This document shows positions 8,445-62,672 of a DNA stretch of 64,000 nucleotides, in pieces; positions within the stretch are counted from its first letter, which is position 1, and every line of letters starts with the position of its first letter. Location of the stretch: contig JADFNE010000013.1 of NCBI GenBank assembly GCA_022563535.1, positions 1 to 64,000 of the forward strand, in the 5' to 3' direction. A program made the translations under genes and the position numbers. Source of the DNA: Myxococcales bacterium (GTDB lineage Bacteria; Myxococcota_A; UBA9160; UBA4427). The notes beneath the pieces were generated by a model. The model ran no database searches. It worked only from the letters and a program-made list of their open reading frames with translations, and was not told the DNA's origin.

Positions 8445-9319
8445 GCGACCGCCCCGATGCGCCCGACCGCTTCGGCGAAGGCGCGTTCCGCGAGTGTCGA
8501 TGCAAGGTCGCGCCGGTATTCAACGCTCGCGTGCACGTCAGAAGTCGGATCCTCGACGCCGTCCATCATTTTTGCGCAGGCCGCCGCGAACAGTTCCGGG
8601 TTTGGCCTTTCGCCGTTGACCGCTGCTTCCACCGCCTGGCAGCGGATCGGCGTCGCGCCGAGGGCGAAACCCACGACCTTCGTGTTTTCGCAGTGACCGC
8701 CGGCATCGAGATTCAGCGTGACCCCGACCCCAGCCATGGCGAAGTCGCCGTGACGTCGGGCAAATTCCTTGAAGGACCAGCCCGTATTCGGCGACATCGC
8801 CGGGATGCGCAGCTCCGTGAGGATTTCGCCTTCTTGAAGTGCCGTCGTGAAGTAGGTGATGAAGAAGTCCGAGGCCGCGATCGTGCGCTTCCCACCCGAT
8901 CCCACAGCCGTGATCTCGGCATCGAGCAACAGCGCCACCGCAGGATATTCCGCGGCGGGATCCGCGTGTGCGACCGAGCCGCCTACGGTGCCGCGATTGC
9001 GAATTTGTGGATGGGCGATCATCAGCGTCGCCGCATGCATCAGCGGCTGGGTGTTCTCGACAACGGGGGAAAACTCGATCGTGCGTTTGGTCGTCATCGC
9101 GCCGATGTGGAGTGCGCCGTTTTCTTCGCGGATGAAAGCGAGTTCGTCGAGCTTGCCCAGATCGACCAACAGTTCCGGCCGGGCCATGCGCATGTTCATC
9201 GCAGCGATCAGGCTCTGACCACCCGCGAGCACGTGAGACTCGACATCTTCGTCGGCGAGATAGCCTATGGCCTCGTCGAGGGTGCCGGGGATCACATAGT
9301 CAAATGGTGCCGGTTTCAT
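8441..9319 (-). CDS. FAD-binding subunit of molybdenum hydroxylase (CoxM type)
   Basis: A 292-aa flavoprotein subunit. The start ATG 9319 gives MKPAPFDYVIPGTLDEA, the usual CoxM beginning; the frame is open further upstream but that part is not protein-like. FAD-binding motifs are visible: AGGQSLIAAMNMR near residue 35 and the TVGGSVAHADPAAEYP segment near residue 110. The C-terminal CO_deh_flav_C domain follows. It transfers electrons from the 2Fe-2S subunit to a quinone or other acceptor. It is first in the CoxM-S-L operon, next to the divergent promoter region 9320-9568. Confidence 0.93.
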   Translation of the reverse strand: MKPAPFDYVIPGTLDEAIGYLADEDVESHVLAGGQSLIAAMNMRMARPELLVDLGKLDELAFIREENGALHIGAMTTKRTIEFSPVVENTQPLMHAATLMIAHPQIRNRGTVGGSVAHADPAAEYPAVALLLDAEITAVGSGGKRTIAASDFFITYFTTALQEGEILTELRIPAMSPNTGWSFKEFARRHGDFAMAGVGVTLNLDAGGHCENTKVVGFALGATPIRCQAVEAAVNGERPNPELFAAACAKMMDGVEDPTSDVHASVEYRRDLASTLAERAFAEAVGRIGAVA

Positions 9320-9506
9320 CGCTCCTCTGTTTCGCCCGGGTTGGCCGTTTGCACCGGAAAGTCGAAAGAACTGCCAGATGGCTAGGTATAGGTGCGAATT
9401 CGCAACGCGGCAAGCAATCGCGAGTCCCCCGAAAGCTCCAAAAAACGCACGGTTTTCACCCGAATCGGTGGGGGGAGTCTGTGGCTCGGACATCTCGATG
9501 TCGTTA

Positions 9507-9520
9507 CTCTGGCGCCAGAG
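9507..9520. promoter_or_regulatory. 14-bp perfect palindrome in divergent promoter region
   Basis: CTCTGGCGCCAGAG reads the same on both strands. It lies in the 249-bp region between the CoxM-type gene (minus) and the ring-hydrolase-like gene (plus), 49 bp before the latter's ATG. Its place and symmetry fit a dimeric repressor site controlling both directions. No regulator gene is adjacent, so the protein that binds it is unknown. Confidence 0.45.
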
Positions 9521-9568
9521 GAAGCCGAGACAGTTCGATGGAGTCAACGGGCGGTTGAGGAGCGCAAA

Positions 9569-10453
9569 ATGAGTTGGACGAAATGGCAAACGGTTGAGGG
9601 CGAAGGCCTCGATTTCGAGGAGATCCTCTTCGAAAAGAAGTCTCACCGCGATCTGGGCGGCGGAATCGCGCGGATCACAATCAACAAGCCAGATGCCATG
9701 AACGTCATGACCGTGGCCACGGTCGAAGAAATGTTTCGCGCCTTCTACGACGCCAATCATGACACCTCCATCGGCGTGATCATCGTGGCCGGCAGCGGCA
9801 AGCACTTCGGTGCAGGTGGCGACGTCGATTGGGAGAAATGGGGGCTGCGCGAAGCCTTCTATAACCGCTATCCGCACAACCGGTTGATCCGCCTCTCGCG
9901 CAAACCGGTGATCGCCCAGGTTCAGGGCTACTGCATCGGCGGGCACAACCACATGGCCTACTGCTGCGACTTCACGATCGCGGCGGACAACGCGATCTTT
10001 GGCCAGGCGGGTCCCAAGGTTTCGAGCCCGGCCGATGGCTTCTTCGTTCCGTATCTCACCAAGGTCGTCGGGGCGAAGAAGGCGCGCGAGATGTGGATGA
10101 TGTGTCGCCGCTATACGGCGCTGGAATGCGAACAGATGGGGCTCGTCAACAAGGTGGTACCGCTGGAAAATCTCGCAGACGAAGTCGACCAGTGGTGCTC
10201 CGAACTGTTGGGCGTGAGTCCCGGTTGCCTCGAGGTGCTGAAGGCGGCGTTCGACCAGGAAATGGACGGCTATCAGGAGATGGGAATCCTGTCGAGCAAT
10301 TTCTACCCCGACTGGTTCGACATGCCCGAAGGCAAAGAGGGCGGGGCGGCCTTCGGCGACCGCCGCACGCCAAAGTTCTGGAGTCTGCGCGAGCGCGAAG
10401 CCAAGCTGCGCGAAGAACTGATTGCCGAGTATGAGAAGGAATCGGGCAAGTAA
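9569..10453 (+). CDS. MenB/BadI-like crotonase, probable ring-opening hydrolase
   Basis: A 294-aa crotonase-fold protein from ATG 9569. Its middle resembles DHNA-CoA synthase (MenB) and 2-ketocyclohexanecarboxyl-CoA hydrolase (BadI) more than ordinary hydratases: INKPDAMNVM, SGKHFGAGGDVDWEKW, QGYCIGGHNHMAY, IFGQAGPKVSSP, VGAKKAREMWMMCRRY. BadI opens an alicyclic ring by hydrolysing a beta-keto cyclic CoA. It is longer than BadI by about 15 residues at the N-terminus and 20 charged residues at the C-terminus. It is divergent from the CoxMSL operon, which with the thiolase-like/DUF35 pair suggests one catabolic regulon. The subfamily assignment is by eye. Confidence 0.75.
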   Translation: MSWTKWQTVEGEGLDFEEILFEKKSHRDLGGGIARITINKPDAMNVMTVATVEEMFRAFYDANHDTSIGVIIVAGSGKHFGAGGDVDWEKWGLREAFYNRYPHNRLIRLSRKPVIAQVQGYCIGGHNHMAYCCDFTIAADNAIFGQAGPKVSSPADGFFVPYLTKVVGAKKAREMWMMCRRYTALECEQMGLVNKVVPLENLADEVDQWCSELLGVSPGCLEVLKAAFDQEMDGYQEMGILSSNFYPDWFDMPEGKEGGAAFGDRRTPKFWSLREREAKLREELIAEYEKESGK

Positions 10454-10850
10454 GTAGAAGCGCGGCCGAGCCGGGCCACGCGCCCCGACACCGAAAAACT
10501 CGGACGCGGATCTCTTTTTGTCCGCTCGCAGGAATCAATAACCACATAGTTCGCCGTAGAATTTGACGATATAACCGTTTCCGCTACGATGTTTTTTCGC
10601 CTACGCGCCCGCGAGCGAATCGGAGAGCAGCAGGTGTTCAATGGAGCACGGCAATTGCGGGTGACGGGCGCTCCCGGGTACAGTGCCCTTGCGTCGTTCG
10701 GGAGATCGGAACCGGAACAATCGGCCGGTCTGTTGCAGCGATCCTGCGCGGAACGGCCGGGTGCTCGCTTTGAATACTCGGCACGATGCCCGTCGAAACA
10801 TCGCGACGGAACGCGCCTTGCCAGCGAGCGACTCAGTGACAATCAATTGC
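10454..10850. other. Long intergenic region before sulfite reductase
   Basis: Together with the adjacent repeat and leader this is a 450-bp gap. An AT-richer patch around 10545-10600 could hold a promoter for the sulfite reductase operon. GCGGA and TCCGC around a CTTTTTG loop (about 10505-10525) form only a weak hairpin. No tRNA, riboswitch or convincing reading frame was recognised. Confidence 0.3.
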
Positions 10851-20312: not shown

Positions 20313-20624
20313 TTAGCCGACCCCGCCGAGGCGCCGGAAGACCGAGTCGGAATTTTGGATCGGAGCGGTGCTGGTATCGGCTGTTCTTGTGATTTCTGCC
20401 ATCACGGCGGTGCAGGTCGTAGCGGCGCAATCGATACCGCGAGCCTCGAGCTCTGCTGGCATCAGTTTTTCAAAGACCGCCGAGAGCTCATTGAGGGTGA
20501 GGTTGTTCACATCCAGGCCCGCGTCCTTGAGCGCAATGCGCAACGTTCCCCGGGCTTCGAGTCGGGAGAGGGGGGTGTTGCTCTCGAGTTGATCGGCAGC
20601 ATGATCGAACAGAGTCGTCGACAT
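20313..20624 (-). CDS. 103-aa soluble partner protein, copy 1 of duplicated module
   Basis: A small helical protein (103 aa) starting at ATG 20624, two bases after the stop of the 7-TM gene. Its near twin is at 21557-21868: about 85 of 103 residues are the same by eye, including FDHAAD, LSRLEARGTLRIALKDAGLDV, LSAVFEK and SVFRRLGG. The Cys in GIDC is Ser in the other copy; the Cys in ATTC is kept. No known domain is recognised. The constant pairing with a 7-TM protein suggests a cytoplasmic effector or chaperone for it. Confidence 0.8.
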   Translation of the reverse strand: MSTTLFDHAADQLESNTPLSRLEARGTLRIALKDAGLDVNNLTLNELSAVFEKLMPAELEARGIDCAATTCTAVMAEITRTADTSTAPIQNSDSVFRRLGGVG

Positions 20625-20626
20625 GG

Positions 20627-21364
20627 TCAGCCCTCGATGCTTTCTGGCACTGTGGCCGATTCGAGCCAACGCTGGTAGAAGACCGGCGGAAAGAAGGCAA
20701 GGAAGAGCGTCACGATCCCACACATCTCGATCGCGCCGGTCACGGACGCCATCGTCCTTTGGAATGCCAAGCTCGTCTCCATGGGAGTCGTAGCGAGGTC
20801 ATTGAAACACGCGGATGTCTGAAAGACGCCAAAGAGAGCAAACAACAGGTAGCGATTCGCGACGACGTGATCACACAAGCCGACCCGCACCCGCCGCTTT
20901 GCACTGGCGTGACAGAGGAAAGCCTCGATCGCAAACCACAAGCAGGGAATTGAGTATCCCAGCCACACGGCCCAGTACCAAGGGTTTTGGAAAACGTAAT
21001 ACTCTTCACCCTGGACGATCCATGCCGTCATGCCGGCCACGAGCGCAACGATGCAGAACCGGACCAACCCCGTGGCCCAAGCGATTTCTGGACGAAAGAC
21101 CAGTCGCGCGAAGAGCACGAACGGGATCACACCCACGCAATAGAGCGCCCAGGACACCAGATCGATCGGGTTTCCGGTCATTGCCTGTTCGAAGTACAGC
21201 GGCAACTGCCAGAGCACGTACGCCAAACCCGTGAAGACGAAGTAAGCGCCCAGCAGCTTTTCGGGAGTTTCTCCCGTGCGCCAGCTCAGCATTATCAATC
21301 GGATGCCTACGACCAGAAAGAAAGCAGCCGCGATCAGTTGCACGATGAGTGCGCTATCGATCAA
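20627..21364 (-). CDS. Seven-transmembrane protein, copy 1 of duplicated module
   Basis: A 245-aa membrane protein with seven predictable hydrophobic segments (about residues 5-27, 38-59, 68-92, 97-118, 126-150, 168-190, 205-235). The loop AFLCHASAKRRVRVGLCDHV between segments 5 and 6 is charged and strictly kept in both copies. PWYWAVWLGYSIP is also kept. The start is TTG 21364, with AGGAG upstream, chosen because the paralogue has the same TTG start, ribosome site and exact length. No retinal Lys or transporter motif is seen. It could be a sensor or a small transporter; function unknown. Confidence 0.82.
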   Translation of the reverse strand: MIDSALIVQLIAAAFFLVVGIRLIMLSWRTGETPEKLLGAYFVFTGLAYVLWQLPLYFEQAMTGNPIDLVSWALYCVGVIPFVLFARLVFRPEIAWATGLVRFCIVALVAGMTAWIVQGEEYYVFQNPWYWAVWLGYSIPCLWFAIEAFLCHASAKRRVRVGLCDHVVANRYLLFALFGVFQTSACFNDLATTPMETSLAFQRTMASVTGAIEMCGIVTLFLAFFPPVFYQRWLESATVPESIEG

Positions 21365-21394
21365 TTCCGCTCTCCTCGAAAGTTTCCGCCAATA

Positions 21395-21423
21395 ACGTAT
21401 ACGTAATGTTGTGTATGTTACGT
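21395..21423. promoter_or_regulatory. Palindromes upstream of 7-TM copy 1
   Basis: ACGTATACGT (21395-21404) is a perfect 10-bp palindrome. Overlapping it, ACGTAA (21401-21406) and TTACGT (21418-21423) form an inverted repeat with an 11-bp spacer. They sit 31-59 bp before TTG 21364. The second module copy lacks them, so they may give copy 1 its own control. Confidence 0.45.
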
Positions 21424-21454
21424 GGATTGCGCATCGTCTTACTCAGGGATTCAC

Positions 21455-21473
21455 TTGAGTGATCATTGAGTGA
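21455..21473. promoter_or_regulatory. Direct repeat TTGAGTGA spaced one helical turn
   Basis: TTGAGTGA occurs at 21455-21462 and 21466-21473, 11 bp apart, upstream of 7-TM copy 1. The first half recurs upstream of copy 2 (22699-22706) within a shared block TTCACTTGAGTGATC. Tandem half-sites one turn apart are typical of response-regulator binding, and a response-regulator/kinase gene is adjacent. Confidence 0.5.
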
Positions 21474-21556
21474 ATTGAACCTGGCCGATGTGGGCTAGAC
21501 GAGATGGCGATCGGGCGGGATTGGAGCAGTGGAGGGTTCGCGTCTGCTTGGAACGC

Positions 21557-21868
21557 TCAACCGCCCCCGCCGAGACGCCGGAAAACCGAGTCGGCGTTCG
21601 CGACCGGAGCCGCGCTGGTATCCGCTGTGCTTGCAATTTCCGCCATCACGGCGCTGCAGGTCGTGGCGGCGGAGTCGATCCCGCGATCTTCGAGCTGCTT
21701 GGGCATTATTTTTTCGAAAACGGCCGAGAGCTCATCGAGGGTGAGGTTCTTCACATCCAGGCCCGCGTCCTTGAGCGCAATGCGCAACGTTCCCCGGGCC
21801 TCGAGTCGGGAGAGGTGGGTATTGCTCTCGAGCCGATCGGCAGCATGATCGAATAGCGTGGGCGACAT
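21557..21868 (-). CDS. 103-aa soluble partner protein, copy 2 of duplicated module
   Basis: A 103-aa paralogue of the protein at 20313-20624. It has the same length, the same two-base gap to its 7-TM gene and the same end SVFRRLGG. About 18 substitutions separate the two copies, clustered after residue 54 and in the Ala/Thr-rich tail. The Cys in ATTC is retained. The pair is more similar to each other than the two membrane proteins are, which hints that the soluble partner contacts a conserved target. Unknown family. Confidence 0.8.
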   Translation of the reverse strand: MSPTLFDHAADRLESNTHLSRLEARGTLRIALKDAGLDVKNLTLDELSAVFEKIMPKQLEDRGIDSAATTCSAVMAEIASTADTSAAPVANADSVFRRLGGGG

Positions 21869-21870
21869 CG

Positions 21871-22608
21871 TCAGCCCTTCATGCTTTCTGCCCCAGTGGG
21901 CGACTCGAGCCAATGCTGGTAGGAGGTCGGTGGGAAGAAGGCGAGGACTAGGATTACGATCCCAAGTATTTCGAACAGGCCGAGCGCGATGGCGAAACCC
22001 GTAACGACGATCGCGCTTTCCGCCTCGGATGTAGAAAGGACGTCAACGATGCACGAAAGCATCTCAAAGACGCCAAACAAACCAAACAACAGGTAACGAT
22101 TCGCGATGACGTGATCACACAAGCCGACCCGAACCCGCCGCTTCGCACTGGCGTGACAGAGGAAGGCCTCGATCGCAAACCATGCGCAAGGAATCGAGTA
22201 TCCCAGCCACACGGCCCAGTACCAAGGGTTGTCGAGAACGTAGTACTCGCGGGCCTGGACGATCCACATCGTCAGGCCAGTCACGAGCGAAACCGTGGTG
22301 AGTCGGACCAACCAGGTGGCCCAAGCGGAGTCGGGACGAAAGACCACACGTGAGAAGTGCAGAAACGGGATCACGCCCACGGCATAGAGCGACCAGGCCA
22401 ACAGATCGATCGGATCTCCGGTCCAGGCTTGCTCGAGGTATGTTTGCAACTGCCATACCCCGTACGCCAAACCCGCGAAGACGAAGTAAGTACCCAACAG
22501 CCTTTCGGGAATTTCTCCCGTGCGCAAGCTCAGCCGCAACAATCGGATGCCTATGACAAGGAAGAAAACAGCCGCGGTGAATTGAGCGATGGTTCCGAGG
22601 TCGATCAA
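21871..22608 (-). CDS. Seven-transmembrane protein, copy 2 of duplicated module
   Basis: A 245-aa seven-helix membrane protein, paralogue of 20627-21364 with the same length. Conserved parts include AAxFFLVxGIRL, YFVFxGLAY, NPWYWAVWLGYSIP, FAIEAFLCHASAKRRVRVG and LCDHVxANRYLLF. The helix-1 edge and helix 7 differ most. TTG 22608 with AGGAG at 22616-22620 is the start; an upstream ATG at 22653 would add 15 poorly conserved residues. It lies downstream of the REC-PAS-kinase gene on the same strand (230-bp gap), which could place the module under that kinase. Function unknown. Confidence 0.82.
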   Translation of the reverse strand: MIDLGTIAQFTAAVFFLVIGIRLLRLSLRTGEIPERLLGTYFVFAGLAYGVWQLQTYLEQAWTGDPIDLLAWSLYAVGVIPFLHFSRVVFRPDSAWATWLVRLTTVSLVTGLTMWIVQAREYYVLDNPWYWAVWLGYSIPCAWFAIEAFLCHASAKRRVRVGLCDHVIANRYLLFGLFGVFEMLSCIVDVLSTSEAESAIVVTGFAIALGLFEILGIVILVLAFFPPTSYQHWLESPTGAESMKG

Positions 22609-22838: not shown

Positions 22839-24389
22839 CTACACGCGCTGGGTCGCTTCGGGGTCTTCCGGCAGCACGACGTGCACGGTTGCGCCGAGTC
22901 CCGCCTTCGATTCGAGCCAAATCTTGCCCCCGCGACGCTCGACGATTTTCTTGCATAGGGCGAGACCAATACCGGTACCCGAATAGTCGAGCTTGCCGTG
23001 CAGGCGCTGGAAGATGACGAATACGCGCTCCCGATATTGTGGGTCGATCCCGATGCCGTTGTCTTGCACGAGAAAATGCCAGGAATCGCCCTCCTGGTCG
23101 GCGCTGATGTGGATGACCAGCGGCTTTTCCGATCGGAATTTGATCGAATTGGCAATGAGGTTCTGAAACAACTGCGTCAATTGCGTGCGATCGGCCACGA
23201 TCGACGGCATTGCTTCGACCTCGATCTGGGCATGACTCTCCGCGATTGCCTTGTCGAGATTCAAGATCGCATCCTGTATGGCATCGCGACAGTCGACGGG
23301 GTTTGGCGTCTTGTCGTTCCCGCCGATCTGAGACAAGGTGAGCAAATCCTTGATCAGGACCCGCATACGGTGCGCTCCATCGACTGCAAAATGCATGAAT
23401 TGAAGCGCCTTATCATCGAGATGTTCAGCGTATTTTTCCTCGAGTAGTTGCAGGTAACTGATGATCATCCGGATCGGTTCCTGCAGGTCGTGCGACGCAA
23501 CGTATGCGAACTGCTCCAGTTCCTGGTTTGACCGCGACAAGTCGTCGATCGCGTGCTTTAGCTGCAACTCGGCTTCCTTGCGTGCTGTAATGTCGGTATG
23601 CGTTCCGATCATGCGCTGCGGCTGGCCGCGTCGGTCGTAGTCGACAGCGCGGCCCCGGCTTCGGATCCAGACCTGCCCGCCAGACTGCGGGCGCATCCGG
23701 AATTCGCAGTCATAGACCGTGCCGTCGACAATACAGGCCCGTGTGAGCGCCAGGATTCGCTCCCTGTCCTCGGGGAACAAGAGGTTCTCGAATGTCTCGC
23801 GGGTGGGCTCCAAGCTGCCCGGTGGGTAGCCGAGCATTGCGCCCCACCGATCGCTATAGCTCACTTTGCCGGTCTCGAGGTCCCAGTCCCACACTCCATC
23901 CTCGATGGCATCGACCAGGTAGGCCTGTGTTCTCTTGAGCTTTTCGAGTGCGTCGTCCAACTCAGAATTCTTCCGCGCCAGGTCATTGCGATAGCGACAT
24001 AGACGAAGATGCAACTCGATGCGCGCCTTGATTTCCTCGAACTGAAAGGGCTTGCTGACGAAATCAATTCCACCGACTTCGAGCGCCTTCACCTTGTCCG
24101 CTGCCTCGGTCAAGGCACTGATGAAAATCACAGGGATATCTCTCAGGCGCGGGTTTGCCTTGAGTTTCTGGCAGACTTCGAAGCCGTTCATGATTGGCAT
24201 CTTGATATCGAGGAGGATCAAATCTGGGGGATCGAGTTCCGCCGCACTCAGGGCGAGGGCGCCGCTCGGAGCGGGCTGAACCCGATAGCCAACCCGCCGC
24301 AACATTGAATTGAGTAGGTCGAGATTCGCCGTCGTGTCGTCGACGATCATGATCTTGGTATTTGCGTGGTGTTCGGACTCGGTGGTCAT
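22839..24389 (-). CDS. Response receiver-PAS-histidine kinase
   Basis: A 516-aa cytoplasmic kinase. The N-terminal receiver domain (about residues 10-125) has the acidic pair DD, phospho-acceptor Asp 61 in LILLDIKMP and Lys 113. The coiled linker contains [15 protein letters not shown]. The PAS/PAC domain (about 155-275) has [18 protein letters not shown]. HisKA has His 300 in [13 protein letters not shown], the phytochrome-like H-box. HATPase has DNGIGI and [17 protein letters not shown]. There is no membrane segment, so the receiver is probably the input, fed by another kinase or HPt protein. It starts at ATG 24389. Candidate partners nearby are the TorS-like kinase and the orphan HPt at 36215. 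Confidence 0.93.
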
Positions 24390-56305: not shown

Positions 56306-57679
56306 CTAGACGAGTCCGTACGCCAGCATTGCATCTGCCACCTTGACGAAGCCAGCGATGTTGGCGCCCGAGACGTAGTCCACACTGCCGTCCGGTCGAG
56401 TCCCGTGCTCGACACAGCGACCGTGGATATCGGTCATGATCCCCTGCAAGCGGTCTTCGACTTCTTTGCGGCTCCAACTCAGGCGCAAGGCATTTTGGCT
56501 CTGCTCGAGCCCCGACACCGCAACGCCACCGGCGTTGGCCGCCTTGCCCGGACCGAAGATCACACCGGCTTCCAGAAACGCGTGCATGGCGTCGGCTTCC
56601 GTCGGCATGTTCGCCCCCTCGCAGACCACCTTGATCTCGTTCTTCAGCAGGGTCTTCGCGTCTTCCAGCGAGATTTCGTTCTGGGTCGCGCAGGGCAGGG
56701 CGACATCACAGGGGACTGACCAGGGGCGCTGCCCCTCGTGAAACGTCGCCTTCTTGAACTCATCGACGTATTCGCTGATCCGTCCACGTCTCACGGTCTT
56801 GAGGTCGATTACGAAGGCGAGTTTTTCGGCGTCGATGCCATCGGGATCGTGGATGAAGCCACTGGAATCCGAAAGGGTCACAACCTTGGCTCCCAACTCG
56901 GTGGCTTTCTGGGCCGCGTAGGTTGCGACGTTGCCCGAACCCGACGCCGTGACGATTTTGCCCTCGAGGCTCTGGCCGGAGTGTTGGAGCATGTGCTCGC
57001 AAAAGTAGACGCAGCCGTAGCCCGTGGCTTCCGTGCGCACGAGACTGCCGCCGAACCCCAGGCCCTTGCCCGTCATGACCCCCGCCCAGCGATTTTCCAG
57101 GCGCTTGTAGTGTCCGAACATGTAACTGATCTCGCGACCACCGACGCCGATATCACCGGCCGGTACATCGGTGTTCTCGCCAATGTGGCGGTGCAGTTCG
57201 ACCATCAGCGACTGACAGAAGCGCATCACTTCGCGGTCGCTCTTGCCCTTCGGGTTGAAGTTCGATCCGCCCTTGCCACCGCCCATGGGAAGCCCCGTCA
57301 GGCTGTTCTTCAGGACCTGCTCGAAGCCCAGAAACTTGAGCACACTTTGGGTGACGGAAGGGTGAAAGCGCATGCCGCCCTTGTATGGGCCGAGGCTGTT
57401 GTTGAACTGAACGCGCCAGACGCGATTGGTTCTGACGTTGCCTTGATCGTCTTCCCAGACGGCGCGGAAAATGATGATCCGATCCGGTTCGGTCATGCGG
57501 TCGAGAATGGCTGCTTCGCGATACCTGGGATTCTCGCGCAGAAAAGGCATCAGGGTGGAAGCGACTTCGTAAACCGCTTGATGGAATTCGGGCTCGTGGG
57601 GATTGCGGCGGATCAGGCCGTGCATGAAGGCAGTGACGTCTTTGTCGTCGCTCGCGAAGGCACTCGAATCTTGGCTCAT
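56306..57679 (-). CDS. gdhA: Glutamate dehydrogenase, probably NADP-dependent
   Basis: A 457-aa hexameric-type glutamate dehydrogenase joining ammonia and 2-oxoglutarate. Motifs are QFNNSLGPYKGGMRFHPSV, LPMGGGKGGSNFNPKGKSD with the catalytic Lys, PAGDIGVGGREISYMFG, TASGSGNVATYAAQKA for the nucleotide, and CEGANMPTEADA. The length matches the bacterial NADP enzyme. ATG 57679 has CGGAGGAAGT just upstream. With NtrBC and PtsP it gives this window a nitrogen theme. Confidence 0.95.
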   Translation of the reverse strand: MSQDSSAFASDDKDVTAFMHGLIRRNPHEPEFHQAVYEVASTLMPFLRENPRYREAAILDRMTEPDRIIIFRAVWEDDQGNVRTNRVWRVQFNNSLGPYKGGMRFHPSVTQSVLKFLGFEQVLKNSLTGLPMGGGKGGSNFNPKGKSDREVMRFCQSLMVELHRHIGENTDVPAGDIGVGGREISYMFGHYKRLENRWAGVMTGKGLGFGGSLVRTEATGYGCVYFCEHMLQHSGQSLEGKIVTASGSGNVATYAAQKATELGAKVVTLSDSSGFIHDPDGIDAEKLAFVIDLKTVRRGRISEYVDEFKKATFHEGQRPWSVPCDVALPCATQNEISLEDAKTLLKNEIKVVCEGANMPTEADAMHAFLEAGVIFGPGKAANAGGVAVSGLEQSQNALRLSWSRKEVEDRLQGIMTDIHGRCVEHGTRPDGSVDYVSGANIAGFVKVADAMLAYGLV

Positions 57680-57765: not shown

Positions 57766-59154
57766 TCAGGGAATCGATGAATCCGACCCGTCGGGGGGTA
57801 TCAACAATGGTTCTTCGACTCCCTTCAGCCGCGTGATCCAGCTTGCGAGTTCCTTTCGCATCTCGATCGTGACAATCTCCCGGGCCAAATCGTTGCCGTC
57901 CGACGTCGCTGCATTTAAATCGAGCTCGATCAGCGTGACCTCTCCGCGCGAGTTCTCTACCAGCTTACGAGTTCCCTTGCGCAGGCTGCGAAGGGATACC
58001 GCGTAGGCCTCGCTGTCAAAGTCGGGATGCCGAGCTGCCCAATACTGACCCAACAATGTGACGGGTTGCGAGTATTCTGCGATCAGGGCTCGCTCGGGGG
58101 AAATTGCCTCGGATGCCAGCAGGCTCTTGCCTTCGAGCGGCACCGGGATCTCGGACTCGCCGAGCAAATCCAACACCGTAGGCAGAAGGTCGAGGTGCGA
58201 AACCGGGAGCGTCACGGTCTGTCGGGCGGGTAGGCGGGATGGATAGCGAAGCACTAGCGGAACCCGCAGCAGGTCGTCGGAAAGAGAAAATTCGTGCCCC
58301 ATCAATCCTTGATCGCCCAGTAATTCGCCGTGATCTGCAGTGATGATGACAAGCGTCTCGTCCAGCAGGTTGCGCATACGCAACGCATCGAGAAGTTTTC
58401 CGAGCTGTTGGTCCTGGTACGCGATTTCGCCGAGGTAGAGCGTGCGTGCGAGCGCGAGTTCGTCAGCGCTGGCGGCTCGCTTGCCGGCGATGATCTCCTC
58501 GGCTTGTTCGATGGTAAATTCCCGCCGCGAGAGGGAGTCGATCTCGATGCCGAGCGCTTCGAACCCGGCGTCGGGCGGGGCATAGGGCAGGTGGGCTTCG
58601 AGGTAGTTCACGAACAGAAAGAACGGTTTGTCCTCTCGTGAAGCCCGGGCAATGAAATCGATGGCGAGTTGGGTCGCCCGCGCGGCTCCCTTGTCGTTCG
58701 CTGCTTCGACATCGCTATACGCCTTTTCGAATCGACCAAAGCCGCGAGCCAGACCGCGCTCCGCCGTTACCCATGGATTGCTCGTGATTCCATGGGTCGT
58801 GTACCCGCGCCGAGCGAGTATCTCGGCCAGGGTGGGGTGCTCTGGGCCGAGAGTGAAGTGTTCGTGAACGGCGCCGTGTTGGCTCGGTGCCAGGCCGGTG
58901 AACATGCTGGCGTGGGAGGGCAAGGTCCAGGGCGCCGTCGCATAGGCATTCGCGAAGCGCCAACCCTCGAGGGCGATGCGATCCATTTGAGGTGTAACGG
59001 GCCGCTGTTTCCATGCGAGACCGACGGCGTCGGCGCGAACCGTGTCGAGCACGATCAGCAGAATGTTGGGAGGCGAAGCCGCGGGTGTGCAACCGGCGTG
59101 GCTGGTGCCGACCAGTGCGACCGCAAGGATCGCTGCGAGCGACCGCGAGTTCAT
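57766..59154 (-). CDS. Sulfatase-fold enzyme with Thr at the nucleophile position
   Basis: A 462-aa alkaline-phosphatase superfamily protein with a signal peptide ending near SHAGC, where a weak lipobox is possible. Metal motif NILLIVLDTVRAD is at about 30. The nucleophile region reads APWTLPSHASMFTG. Sulfatases have CxPSR there, but here Thr replaces the Cys that becomes formylglycine and His replaces Arg. ADHGELLGDQG holds further metal ligands. Thr in this site suggests a phosphodiesterase or phosphotransferase rather than a sulfatase. It follows the aminotransferase gene without a gap (TAGATG). Confidence 0.85.
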   Translation of the reverse strand: MNSRSLAAILAVALVGTSHAGCTPAASPPNILLIVLDTVRADAVGLAWKQRPVTPQMDRIALEGWRFANAYATAPWTLPSHASMFTGLAPSQHGAVHEHFTLGPEHPTLAEILARRGYTTHGITSNPWVTAERGLARGFGRFEKAYSDVEAANDKGAARATQLAIDFIARASREDKPFFLFVNYLEAHLPYAPPDAGFEALGIEIDSLSRREFTIEQAEEIIAGKRAASADELALARTLYLGEIAYQDQQLGKLLDALRMRNLLDETLVIITADHGELLGDQGLMGHEFSLSDDLLRVPLVLRYPSRLPARQTVTLPVSHLDLLPTVLDLLGESEIPVPLEGKSLLASEAISPERALIAEYSQPVTLLGQYWAARHPDFDSEAYAVSLRSLRKGTRKLVENSRGEVTLIELDLNAATSDGNDLAREIVTIEMRKELASWITRLKGVEEPLLIPPDGSDSSIP

Positions 59155-60279
59155 CTAGCGATTCGCTTCGAGAAGCGCACTGCAGATGCGGTCTGCGGTC
59201 GCGTCTTCCATGTAGGGATGCATCGGCAGGCTCATGATGCGGCGACAGAGCGATTCGCTCACCGGCAGCGAACCTTCGCCGTCTCCGAAGTCCGCGTACG
59301 GGGGCTGCAGATGAATCGGCGTGGGGTAGTAGATCGCAGTCGGGATTCCCGCATCGGCCAGGGCCGCGACGACTCGGTCCCGATCGTCGAGCAAGATGGA
59401 GTACTGCGCCCAGGCGCTCGTCTTTCCCGCCTGTCGCGCGGGTGTAGTGACTGCTTGTGCGAGTTGGGCATCATAGCGGGCGGCGAGTCGTTCCCGGGCC
59501 TCGAGTTCCTCGGCGAAGATTGCGAGTTTGGGAAGCAGGATGGCCGCCTGCAGGGTGTCGAGCCGGCTGTTTACTCCGATCCTGTCGATGTCGTATTTCC
59601 CTTTGCCCTTGCCGTGCTCCCGAATCGAGCGCAGCAGCCCGGCTCGTTCGGCGTCATTGGTAAAGATGGCGCCACCGTCGCCGTAGCATCCGAGAGGTTT
59701 CGCGGGATAGAAACTCGTGGTCGTGACCGGCGCCAGGGCGCCCACCCGCGCTTCTCCGATCCGGCCACCGAAACTCTGGGCGGCGTCGCCGATCACCCGA
59801 AGACCGTGTTCGTCGGCAATCTCGTTGATCGCCGCGTAGTCGGCGGGCAAGCCAAAAAGGTCTACCGGCAGGATGGCTTTGGGTGTGAGATTGTCGGATT
59901 TTTCGACCTCTCGGATCTTTGCGCGCAGGGGTTCCACGTCGAGATTGAAAGTCTTTTCGTCCACGTCGACAAAGACCGGTACGGCACCCACGAGCAGGAC
60001 GACCTCTGCAGAGGCGGTGAAGGTGAATGCGGGCAGAAACACGGCATCACCCGGGCCGACGCCTTCGGCCATCAACACCATCACCAGCGCGTCGGTTCCA
60101 CTGGATACTGCAATCGCGTGTTCGCAACCGGCGAAAGCACACAACGCGGCTTCGAGTTCGGCGATTTCCGGGCCCATGATGAAGCGGCCGTGGTCGAGTA
60201 CGCCCCGAATACGCGCGTCGATCTGCGACTTCAGGCGCTGATACTGAGCGGCGAGGTCGACGAAGGGGATGTTGTTCAT
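59155..60279 (-). CDS. DegT/DnrJ/EryC1-family sugar aminotransferase
   Basis: A 374-aa PLP enzyme that aminates a keto-sugar nucleotide. Motifs are FVDLAAQYQRLK, SSGTDALVMVLMA, FLPAFTFTASAE, GDAAQSFGG and the PLP Lys in SFYPAKPLGCYGDGGA. C-terminal parts resemble WbpE/WlbC-type enzymes for amino-uronates. It sits between the LnmK-like gene and the sulfatase-fold gene, with 1-bp and 0-bp spacing. It suggests modification of a surface glycan or glycolipid. Confidence 0.92.
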   Translation of the reverse strand: MNNIPFVDLAAQYQRLKSQIDARIRGVLDHGRFIMGPEIAELEAALCAFAGCEHAIAVSSGTDALVMVLMAEGVGPGDAVFLPAFTFTASAEVVLLVGAVPVFVDVDEKTFNLDVEPLRAKIREVEKSDNLTPKAILPVDLFGLPADYAAINEIADEHGLRVIGDAAQSFGGRIGEARVGALAPVTTTSFYPAKPLGCYGDGGAIFTNDAERAGLLRSIREHGKGKGKYDIDRIGVNSRLDTLQAAILLPKLAIFAEELEARERLAARYDAQLAQAVTTPARQAGKTSAWAQYSILLDDRDRVVAALADAGIPTAIYYPTPIHLQPPYADFGDGEGSLPVSESLCRRIMSLPMHPYMEDATADRICSALLEANR

Positions 60280-60280
60280 A

Positions 60281-61324
60281 TCAACTGGCTGAGTCCTCGG
60301 TCAGAGCATTGACGAAGCGATGGGCTTCGCCTTGAAGACTGCTGAAGCGGTTGGGAATCGAAAGTGCCTTGGACACGACGGATTTGCCCATCAGGACGCC
60401 GTCAGATTTGCGATGCAAATCGAAGAAGAACTGAAAACGCAAAATTTCAGTACGCAGTCCGGTCGGACGCCTTGGGGTGCGACCGAGGTCGACCGCAGAA
60501 CCCGTGCAGTAGATCATGACTTCGTCGGTCTCCGAAGCGTTTGCGAAAAAGTACGAACGCCGACGCTCGGTGGAAAGAAAGCGAGTCAAGGGCTGGGAAA
60601 ACGGCCGGGAAAGTCGCTGAGACAAGAAAATGCGCTCGGCGTAATTCATCATGGCCACGTACCTTGCGAAATAGATCAGGCCCGCTCCGTTGAGATCGTT
60701 CTCCAACTGGATTGCGTACGGGATTGGGCTGGCATCCACCGGGCGAATCGGTGTCAAGCGCGTTGCATCGTAGAAGGGCTCGACGTTGCCTGTCTGCATG
60801 ACCAGCTCGTGCTCGACGATGCCAATGGGCTTTTCCGTCGTGGTCGGGACGTTCTTGTTTTGGATCCCCTCCGGACTGAAGGTCTTCAGCCGACTGTTGT
60901 CCGCCAGTCGGGCGACCATGGCGTTGGTCATGCAGATCCAGGTGGAATCGAGGGCATCGAGGTCGGCCTTGGATTTGATGCTCGCGACGGTCTCTTCGGG
61001 GATCTCCTTTTTGTCGAAGAGTGTCCAACCTTCCACGAAGTGTTTGGCGTAGAACTGCACGGTGCCCCGAGCGTGAACCTGATCGCCTTCCTGATACTGC
61101 GAAATATTGCCGTCGCGTCCGAAGCGCGATTCGACCTGGATGACCGACGCGTAGAGGCGTTCGCCTTCGTCGCTGATCAATAGATGCGATGGACAGTCGA
61201 GGGCCTGGCCCAACTGGTTCCACTGGAATTCGGCGTAGATTTTGAGCAGCTCAACTTCAGAAAGCTGATCCGGCACCATGTTTGGCATGCCGACTGTGAA
61301 TGAGAGCTGCGGGTATCGATGCAT
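60281..61324 (-). CDS. LnmK/Pnap_2097-like double-hotdog protein
   Basis: A 347-aa soluble protein. The beginning GMPNMVPDQLSEVELLK resembles the start of LnmK-family proteins (GMPxxxLxxLSExWLLK), a bifunctional acyltransferase/decarboxylase of polyketide clusters. The second half contains LNGAGLIYFARYVAMMNYAER, a hot-dog motif recalling acyl-ACP thioesterases. Two hot-dog domains are likely. It starts at ATG 61324 and is followed by the aminotransferase with one spare base. An acyl transfer or decarboxylation step is a guess; no ACP gene is nearby. Confidence 0.62.
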   Translation of the reverse strand: MHRYPQLSFTVGMPNMVPDQLSEVELLKIYAEFQWNQLGQALDCPSHLLISDEGERLYASVIQVESRFGRDGNISQYQEGDQVHARGTVQFYAKHFVEGWTLFDKKEIPEETVASIKSKADLDALDSTWICMTNAMVARLADNSRLKTFSPEGIQNKNVPTTTEKPIGIVEHELVMQTGNVEPFYDATRLTPIRPVDASPIPYAIQLENDLNGAGLIYFARYVAMMNYAERIFLSQRLSRPFSQPLTRFLSTERRRSYFFANASETDEVMIYCTGSAVDLGRTPRRPTGLRTEILRFQFFFDLHRKSDGVLMGKSVVSKALSIPNRFSSLQGEAHRFVNALTEDSAS

Positions 61325-61478
61325 TGGGAGTCGCCCTGAGGCTTTGAGAAACGTTCAGAATATAGAATTCGCAATTGTGTCGCCAGAAACGCCCGGTTGT
61401 CCAATCGTCGACGGAGTCATGTCAGTTTCGTATCCTTTCGCCTTTCCACCCTGAATGAGAGCGAGAATCCGAGCGCAT

Positions 61479-62672
61479 ATGTCGAAGACACTCGAGGGCA
61501 ACGCGGTGATCGGACAGTCTGGTGGTCCGACCGCGGTCATCAATCAATCGATGGTCGGATGTATCGAGGTGCTGCGCTCTTGCGACGCGATCGGCAAGAT
61601 CCTGGGCGCGCATCACGCGGTCAGCGGCATTATCCAAAACGATTTCATCGACCTGACCGACATTCCACAAGCTCGACTCGAGCGGATTGCCAACACACCG
61701 TCTTCCGCATTGGGAAGTAGCCGCGACAAGCCAGACAAAGAGTACTGCAAGAAGATCTTCGACAGCTTCGCCGCAAACAACGTCCGCTACTTTTTCTATA
61801 TCGGCGGGAACGACAGCTCGGACACTGCGCGCATTGTCAACGAGATGGCCCGGGATGAAGGCTACGAACTGCGCGCGTTTCACGTCCCCAAGACGATCGA
61901 CAACGATCTCGAACACAACGACCACACCCCGGGCTTCCCGTCCGCAGCGCGTTTTGTCGCCCAGGCACTGATGGGGGACCAGCTCGACAACGCGGCACTT
62001 CCGGGCATCAAGGTGGATATCATCATGGGGCGCCACGCCGGCTTTCTGACCGCGGCGAGCGTGATGGCGCGCAGTCGGGAGAGCGACGGACCCCATCTGA
62101 TCTACGTGCCCGAGGTCGCGTTCGACCTCGAACAGTTCATTGCGGACGTAGACCGCTCTTATACAAAGCACGGTCGTTGCATCATCGCGATCTCCGAGGG
62201 AATCCACGACGCCGACGGCAATGCGATCGCGACCAAGTTGGCGGATACCGTCGAGAAGGACGCCCATGGGAATGTCCAACTCTCAGGCACGGGCGCACTC
62301 GGGGACTATCTCGTTCGACTGATCAAGCAGCGGCTCGGCGAGGGATTGCGGGTGCGCGCCGACACCTTTGGGTACTTGCAGCGGTCCTTTGCGGGTTGCG
62401 TGAGCGAAGTAGACCAGCGGGAAGCTCGCGCTTCGGCACGACTGGCCGCCGAGTTGGCGATCGAAGGGGTTGAAAACGGATCGATTGCGATCCAGCGGGT
62501 GAGCGATGATCCCTATCAGGTCGAGTACAAGCGCATCGAATTGAGCGACGTGGCCGGGAAGACGCGGGCCCTGCCCCTCGAGTACATCGTCGATGGTTGC
62601 GATATTGCGCCGAGTTTTCGCACCTACCTGGCTCCGCTGCTAGGCGAGCTACCGCCGATCGAGCAATTTTAG
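61479..62672 (+). CDS. Diphosphate-dependent 6-phosphofructokinase
   Basis: A 397-aa phosphofructokinase that uses PPi. Motifs are GNAVIGQSGGPTAVINQS, then GGNDSSDTA (residues 109-117), where Asp 112 replaces the Gly of ATP enzymes, and PKTIDND with Lys 138, both marks of PPi dependence. GRHAGFLTAAS follows. It works reversibly in glycolysis and gluconeogenesis. ATG 61479 gives the normal beginning; ATG 61455 would add eight basic residues. It is divergent from the LnmK-like operon and 48 bp before pqqB. Confidence 0.92.
   Translation: MSKTLEGNAVIGQSGGPTAVINQSMVGCIEVLRSCDAIGKILGAHHAVSGIIQNDFIDLTDIPQARLERIANTPSSALGSSRDKPDKEYCKKIFDSFAANNVRYFFYIGGNDSSDTARIVNEMARDEGYELRAFHVPKTIDNDLEHNDHTPGFPSAARFVAQALMGDQLDNAALPGIKVDIIMGRHAGFLTAASVMARSRESDGPHLIYVPEVAFDLEQFIADVDRSYTKHGRCIIAISEGIHDADGNAIATKLADTVEKDAHGNVQLSGTGALGDYLVRLIKQRLGEGLRVRADTFGYLQRSFAGCVSEVDQREARASARLAAELAIEGVENGSIAIQRVSDDPYQVEYKRIELSDVAGKTRALPLEYIVDGCDIAPSFRTYLAPLLGELPPIEQF

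Follow-up and report, generated by a model that had tools for sequence, protein, structure and literature searches.

The steps to UDP-GlcNAc(3NAc)A in Pseudomonas aeruginosa are carried out by WbpA, WbpB, WbpE and WbpD, as PMC10622841 describes. LnmK, an enzyme of antibiotic synthesis, is the leinamycin methylmalonyl-CoA:acyl carrier protein (ACP) acyltransferase/decarboxylase (4hzo, 6x7l-p), and in the Mad malonyl-ACP decarboxylases a hotdog enzyme makes acetyl-ACP that is preferred by the sugar N-acetyltransferase GlmU (PMC8666670). Here we describe a 64,000-nucleotide stretch of DNA (the window) from contig C13 of a Myxococcales genome (G000; 4.63 Mb, 147 contigs, 97.88% complete), in which three adjacent genes encode an LnmK-like protein, a sugar aminotransferase and a sulfatase-fold protein with threonine at the place of the nucleophile (Table 1). 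Each part of the locus is of a known kind; their combination is uncommon. Our leading explanation, held tentatively and with somewhat less than even confidence, is that these genes are left over from a genus-wide locus that makes a UDP-3-amino-3-deoxy sugar (of the GlcNAc or GlcNAcA type), in which the LnmK-type enzyme would possibly provide the acyl donor and the Thr-type enzyme would act on a phosphoester or phosphodiester.

The LnmK-like protein shares with LnmK the predicted double-hotdog fold over nearly its full length and the D-x-N-G loop, and has a tyrosine spaced like the putative acyl-bearing one, but it is only ~14% identical and falls below the TIGR04098 cut-off, no ACP was found at the locus, and a scan of flanking genes showed no polyketide synthase. 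The Mad enzymes differ in being single hotdog domains of another Pfam family, and the comparison with them claims no gene linkage. With the Wbp route the locus has in common a WbpE-like aminotransferase, preceded in two genomes of the same genus (G001, G002) by a dehydrogenase and a hexapeptide acyltransferase; these are, however, a single fused gene, which the window locus lacks. Among the flanking genes scanned there is no nucleotide-sugar 6-dehydrogenase, and the product could be either GlcNAc3NAc or the uronic acid. The third protein has the PF00884 fold and metal-site motifs of type I sulfatases, with Thr and His in place of their Cys/Ser and Arg. The Thr-type transferases EptA and LtaS of the alkaline phosphatase superfamily also have this fold and these motifs, but the window protein has no multi-span membrane domain like theirs.

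Gene order and probable gene loss in the genus

A search of 147 genomes with the LnmK-like protein (E <= 0.001) matched nine: the window genome, three of the same genus (G001-G003), four of the same order, and G007, whose match (E 2.1e-4, with an internal stop) was dropped from the reading. Orthologs of all three proteins are present in G001-G003 at 57-77% identity, and in each the three genes lie between the same pyrophosphate-dependent phosphofructokinase and glutamate dehydrogenase genes, so that they are linked in all four genomes of the genus. The loci of the relatives are larger. With genes chosen by codon usage trained on eight window genes, a rough tool, the order in G001 is phosphofructokinase, MMPL, LolA-like, LnmK-like, a gene fusing a sugar 3-dehydrogenase to a hexapeptide acyltransferase (the fusion), aminotransferase, sulfatase-fold and glutamate dehydrogenase. 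G002 has the same order with a reverse-oriented P450 gene separating the LnmK-like gene from the fusion, and G003 runs phosphofructokinase, MMPL, LolA-like, LnmK-like, P450, aminotransferase, sulfatase-fold, glutamate dehydrogenase, without the fusion. A composite block drawn from the three is therefore phosphofructokinase, MMPL, LolA-like, LnmK-like, P450, fusion, aminotransferase, sulfatase-fold and glutamate dehydrogenase.

None of MMPL, LolA-like, P450 and the fusion has a match in the window (E <= 1e-15); the UDP-sugar 3-dehydrogenase and N-acyltransferase that stand beside the aminotransferase in G001 and G002 are thus absent beside that of the window. In the rest of the window genome the best MMPL match is 29% identical (P450 and LolA-like were sought in the window), and a whole-genome search for the fusion gave nine partial matches and none of full length. 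The best of these is a 348-aa dehydrogenase with 34% identity across the first 316 residues; identities are 28-32% for the rest, save for one match at 50% over 50 hexapeptide residues. It is unlikely that the fusion is missing merely from the assembly, as the locus is contiguous, the genome nearly complete and the matches only partial.

We infer that the absence of these partner genes reflects loss. The LnmK-like protein of the window is 77% identical to that of G001, 68% to G003 and 66% to G002. Since the window thereby pairs with G001, and both G001 and G002 carry the fusion, parsimony on these identities suggests that the fusion was ancestral and has been lost twice. The compact "operon" of the window looks like a reduced remnant of a larger block. 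A self-contained three-gene pathway was rejected, as additional genes lie between and next to the three in the sister genomes and only the window shows such close spacing.

The aminotransferase and the fused enzyme

The aminotransferase belongs to the DegT/DnrJ/EryC1 family (PF01041, E 1.1e-105), and its closest solved relatives are a DegT enzyme from Brucella (4qgr, 428 bits) and WbpE (3nyu, 371 bits). It is 75% identical to its G001 counterpart, and in G001, G002 and G086 (a genome of the same class) homologs at 68-75% are accompanied by an adjacent 3-dehydrogenase-like gene. The fusion, of 524 aa, joins a WbpB-like Gfo/Idh/MocA dehydrogenase to a WbpD-like hexapeptide acyltransferase; the best NCBIfam match of its dehydrogenase half is UDP-GlcNAc 3-dehydrogenase (NF040723), at 144.1 bits below the cut-off of 450. 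It stands directly before the aminotransferase gene in two of the three other genomes of the genus (G001 and G002).

This pairing extends beyond the genus. Of 377 genomes searched across the phylum, 56 match the fusion at E <= 1e-80; loci were fetched from 40 of the 54 genomes beyond G001 and G002, some of them cut by contig ends. An aminotransferase homolog (33-68% identity) adjoins the fusion homolog or one of its halves in 22 of these 40 Myxococcota loci, on the opposite strand in two (L154, L169). The G086 aminotransferase adjoins a dehydrogenase of 60% identity; a gene of the UDP-GlcNAc 2-epimerase family comes next, and the hexapeptide half lies further on. Similar rows occur on plasmids: a polysaccharide locus of Azospirillum has a nucleotide-sugar dehydrogenase, the fusion (56%) and the aminotransferase (49%) in order, and a Paracoccus plasmid has a nucleotide-sugar dehydrogenase, a Gfo/Idh dehydrogenase, a hypothetical gene and the aminotransferase (53%). 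Given this adjacency in relatives and on plasmids, and the WbpA, WbpB, WbpE and WbpD steps described in PMC10622841, the aminotransferase is best interpreted, from its sequence and neighbors, as being of WbpE type, with a UDP-3-oxo sugar as its substrate.

We hypothesize that in the fuller locus the fused enzyme would oxidize C3 of a UDP-sugar, the aminotransferase would then install an amine at that position, and the hexapeptide domain of the fused enzyme would acylate the amine. The LnmK-fold protein would decarboxylate a malonyl- or methylmalonyl-thioester to the acetyl- or propionyl-thioester, possibly the donor for that acylation, while the probably exported Thr-type protein would find its substrate, a phosphoester or phosphodiester, outside the cytoplasm. 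The aminotransferase of the window would have to rely on a 3-dehydrogenase encoded elsewhere. Contig C9 of the same genome carries a WbpB-like dehydrogenase side by side with a second aminotransferase (43% identical to that of the window), and this pair may be a source of the 3-oxo sugar. Gene order, families, predicted fold, conserved residues and the lack of the partner genes at the locus are observed; from them we infer what the enzymes act on, how the decarboxylase would connect to acylation of the sugar, and what the Thr-type enzyme does. An earlier note on this DNA, made from the sequence alone, had proposed that the three genes make and transfer an acylated amino sugar, with the Thr enzyme moving a phospho-group outside the cytoplasm; this interpretation is partly supported. 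The place of the fusion before the aminotransferase in two of the three other genomes lends support to the amino sugar, but the likely sugar acyltransferase is the fusion, lacking at the window locus, and not the LnmK-like gene.

LnmK-type genes in other settings

Outside the genus, the LnmK-like gene is immediately preceded by an ACP gene in each of the four loci with upstream sequence: three from genomes of the same order (L026, L027, L029) and one from a record labelled Deltaproteobacteria (L045). (L028 is cut at the start of the LnmK-like gene, and L046 repeats L026 in length and position.) All four carrier proteins, which are of the phosphopantetheine-binding kind, score above the PF00550 cut-off. 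Profile hidden Markov models (HMMs) find no ACP in the window or in the genus loci L023, L024 and L025, and none of the small open reading frames (ORFs) in the gap between the LnmK-like gene and the fusion of G001 is ACP-like by HMM. With the carrier upstream in every such locus outside the genus and found in none within it, the clade looks ACP-dependent, and this genus would have lost or moved its carrier.

More distant relatives were found on plasmids. A search with the window LnmK-like protein matched only four plasmid records, at 22.6-24.3% identity, and among viral contigs no LnmK relative was confirmed; tblastn with the LnmK domain of a Roseobacter protein matched 60 plasmid records. Nineteen records with LnmK-type matches were opened, of which 14 are annotated and five (L214, L215, L216, L221, L222) have no usable annotation. 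Nine of the 14 belong to one kind of nitrilase cluster, known as Nit1C (L207, L208, L209, L211, L212, L217-L220), and some of these clusters hold glycosyltransferase and N-acetyltransferase genes. Three are polyketide-type loci (L196 and L198, from strains of one species, and L213), and one, from Thalassospira (L210), lies beside acyl-AMP ligase genes. The last is among polysaccharide genes on the Roseobacter litoralis plasmid pRLO149_63 (L197), where a 487-aa ORF (9317-10780) combines a hexapeptide acyltransferase at residues ~50-190 with an LnmK-type domain at 231-481 (157.6 bits). It is the one example of its kind; the frames of the five unannotated loci leave 24-147 codons upstream of the match, against the ~200 residues that precede the domain in Roseobacter. 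In two of the nitrilase clusters (L212, 6995-9960; L218, 6980-9951) a gene of the Pnap_2097 family overlaps the next gene, for methylmalonyl-CoA mutase, by 4 bases. The overlap hints at methylmalonyl-CoA as a substrate.

The Roseobacter fusion and the G001 and G002 loci suggest that an LnmK-type enzyme may provide the donor for a sugar acyltransferase. A broader proposal is that LnmK-type decarboxylases form a general acyl-donor module, in which a dedicated ACP and an LnmK-type enzyme would yield acetyl- or propionyl-ACP. A hexapeptide transferase, joined to the LnmK-type enzyme in Roseobacter litoralis and to the sugar 3-dehydrogenase in this genus, would transfer the acyl group to a nucleotide amino sugar or polysaccharide, and N- or O-propionylated glycans would arise by a decarboxylation-driven route. 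We regard this as speculative and rather unlikely. Such a module is not known to have been described; a literature search aimed at it gave no title on sugar acylation.

Several observations weigh against joining the three genes in one pathway. The fusion is missing in two of the four genomes of the genus (the window and G003), yet the other three genes persist there, and in G002 and G003 the opposite-strand P450 splits the LnmK-like gene from the aminotransferase, so that there is no single operon in these genomes. Synteny within one genus is weak functional evidence where the housekeeping flanks are equally conserved. Beyond it, 21 of the 22 aminotransferases beside fusion homologs are only 33-43% identical to that of the window, no closer than the C9 paralog, and only that of G086 (67.6%) is clearly closer. 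The genus loci have no ACP detectable by HMM, and most of the LnmK-type loci read outside the genus contain none of the genes of this sugar pathway.

The earlier note had looked to co-occurrence in other genomes as its check, and the outcome is divided. Linkage holds throughout the genus, but neither the aminotransferase nor the sulfatase-fold gene is found in the 24 LnmK-type loci outside it (those of five relatives and the 19 plasmid records; stretches of 5-25 kb, E <= 1e-5), nor is a match to the LnmK-like or the sulfatase-fold protein found in the 40 fusion loci (E <= 1e-15, 80 bits or more). MMPL and LolA-like are likewise without a match in the 24 loci; the one match to the fusion is to its hexapeptide half in Roseobacter (32%), and the one match to the P450 is in L210 (30%).

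The alternative that survives best is that two unrelated modules adjoin, with the aminotransferase and sulfatase-fold protein (and, where present, the fusion) serving surface glycans, the LnmK-like protein serving lipid synthesis or export with MMPL and LolA-like, and a deletion having brought them together in the window. LolA-like and MMPL adjoin the LnmK-like gene in three of the four genomes of the genus, and the P450 parts it from the aminotransferase in G002 and G003. In the order its neighbors include an acyl-CoA ligase in L029, an acyl-CoA dehydrogenase in L027 and a weak tesB-like match in L028, a pyruvate:ferredoxin oxidoreductase lies nearby in L027 and L026, and no homolog of the aminotransferase, sulfatase-fold protein or fusion occurs in L026-L029. 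On the other hand, the LnmK-like gene stays with the aminotransferase and sulfatase-fold genes in the window, where MMPL and LolA-like are gone from the locus, and a polysaccharide plasmid of Roseobacter encodes an LnmK-type domain in one protein with a hexapeptide acyltransferase. We consider two modules a serious possibility, though on balance an improbable one. Within the explanation that we favor, the remnant of a sugar locus is held with more confidence than the coupling of the LnmK-type enzyme to acylation, which is plausible but unproven.

The LnmK-like protein

The match of the LnmK-like protein to TIGR04098 (LnmK) scores 92.7 bits (E 2.3e-26; 92.8 in a second scan), under the curated cut-off of 100 bits, which among 377 genomes is reached, barely, by the G002 ortholog only. 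A Pfam scan gave no match. An AlphaFold model built from a nine-row alignment (mean pLDDT 85.9) has LnmK (6x7p) as its best structural match, with Z 27.8 and a root-mean-square deviation of 2.9 over 294 aligned residues at the ~14% identity given above, and Foldseek likewise puts LnmK first. Tyr58 is invariant in all nine rows of the alignment and lies as far from a conserved Trp as does the Tyr of chain index 61 in 4hzo_A, presumably the acyl-bearing Tyr62 of LnmK. The Azospirillum and Roseobacter relatives align to the LnmK Tyr without gaps; the pairwise alignment of the window protein itself ended before that residue. Asn212, in a D-L-N-G motif aligned with D-V-N-G of LnmK, is also invariant in all nine rows. 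According to PMC8666670, where the name is spelled LmnK, the decarboxylase uses an asparagine on a loop resembling that of MadB; the paper gives no residue number, and that this is the Asn of D-x-N-G is our reading of it. The loop (residues 209-213) is among the least confident parts of the model (pLDDT < 50). The protein is a distant LnmK relative that keeps the catalytic-loop Asn and probably the Tyr. Literature searches returned no paper linking LnmK with Tyr62, and none on Pnap_2097.

It could instead be an acyl-ACP or acyl-CoA thioesterase that trims acyl chains and is no decarboxylase. Acyl-ACP thioesterases are the next fold family (Z 19.4 and lower, 17-19), and fatty-acid genes adjoin the LnmK-like gene in some relatives; LnmK nevertheless scores far higher, and the decarboxylase-loop Asn and the aligned Tyr are invariant, and we think a thioesterase unlikely. 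On the best reading the protein is a predicted acyl-thioester decarboxylase/acyltransferase of LnmK type, perhaps the source of the donor with which an amino sugar is acylated.

The sulfatase-fold protein

In this protein (PF00884, E 1.5e-47), T77-L-P-S-H replaces the formylglycine motif C/S-x-P-x-R, and both TLPSH and ADHG are invariant in the four orthologs. Thr cannot be converted to formylglycine, and a sulfatase of the usual kind is therefore unlikely. Other Thr-type members of the superfamily act on phosphoesters or phosphodiesters, and by analogy such a substrate fits the window protein. Scores are far from the NCBIfam cut-offs of the phospho-transferases (MCR-5, 20.5 of 1250 bits; LtaS, 18 of 970 bits). 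A hydrophobic leader, read by eye, ends in Cys22, and those of the three orthologs end in Cys too; together with the Thr motif, this lipoprotein-like leader makes phospho-transfer outside the cytoplasm plausible. At E <= 1e-75, five of the 377 genomes have a homolog: G007 (39%) and all four members of the genus. Literature searches returned no paper on a threonine-nucleophile sulfatase.

The Thr nucleophile was rejected as a special mark of this gene, as there are other Thr-type paralogs in the same genome. A motif scan covered eight loci out of 56 match rows from that genome, and the pattern had Thr in three (L015, which is the window gene, L017 and L021), the other five being unmatched by the pattern; it is present too in G007 (L179) and in a second sulfatase of G002 (L025). 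The 56 rows, several of which are pieces of one gene, point to a large expansion of the superfamily in G000.

Layout and integrity of the locus

Table 1. Coordinates of the three genes and their flanks in the window.
Feature	Position	Strand	Basis
LnmK-fold double-hotdog protein, 347 aa, predicted acyl-thioester decarboxylase/acyltransferase	60281..61324	-	TIGR04098, AlphaFold model, Tyr58/Asn212
WbpE/GnnB-like pyridoxal-phosphate (PLP) sugar aminotransferase, 374 aa	59155..60279	-	PF01041, 4qgr/WbpE similarity
Sulfatase-fold (alkaline phosphatase superfamily) protein, Thr77 at nucleophile place, probably exported, lipoprotein-like leader, 462 aa	57766..59154	-	PF00884
NADP glutamate dehydrogenase (flank)	56306..57679	-	NF006929 729.8 bits; conserved neighbor in 4/4 genus genomes
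Pyrophosphate-dependent phosphofructokinase (flank)	61455..62672	+	NF010675 456.5 bits; conserved neighbor in 4/4 genus genomes

All three ORFs are intact and start with ATG. The gaps are 1 bp between the LnmK-like and aminotransferase genes, a spacing found only in the window among the four genomes of the genus, and 0 bp between the aminotransferase and sulfatase-fold genes. The earlier note had this right, as three minus-strand genes 0-1 bp apart, and its naming of them as LnmK-like, sugar aminotransferase and Thr-type sulfatase fold is borne out by the TIGR04098, PF01041 and PF00884 matches. Compared with G001, third codon positions diverge two to five times more than second ones in all three genes (difference rates at positions 3/2 of 0.538/0.118 for the LnmK-like gene, 0.561/0.150 for the aminotransferase and 0.633/0.283 for the sulfatase-fold gene), which we read as purifying selection on all three ORFs; this pattern and the orthologs in the genus speak against chance reading frames. 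That the locus is decaying, its leftover genes without joint function since the fusion was lost, is very unlikely: the fusion is absent in the window and G003 and four genes of the composite block are missing at the window locus, but the ORFs are intact with a purifying-selection codon pattern (in a comparison that spans pre-loss time too and is thus no proof of present selection), and the aminotransferase remains 75% identical to that of G001.

Elsewhere in the window, a two-gene unit (103 aa and 245 aa) on the minus strand at 20313-22608 is tandemly duplicated, with copies 83% and 66% identical in protein. It has no Pfam match and lies beside a PAS/response-regulator histidine kinase gene (22839-24389).

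Implications

If the two modules are in fact unrelated, the locus would illustrate how deletion can fashion a convincing-looking operon from the parts of a larger one. If the coupling of the LnmK-type enzyme to sugar acylation is true, an enzyme class known from polyketide beta-branching would also serve surface-glycan chemistry. Sugars with a 3-N-propionyl group would then be a simple target, and the coupling would provide a first testable role for the Pnap_2097/LnmK relatives in unexplained clusters.

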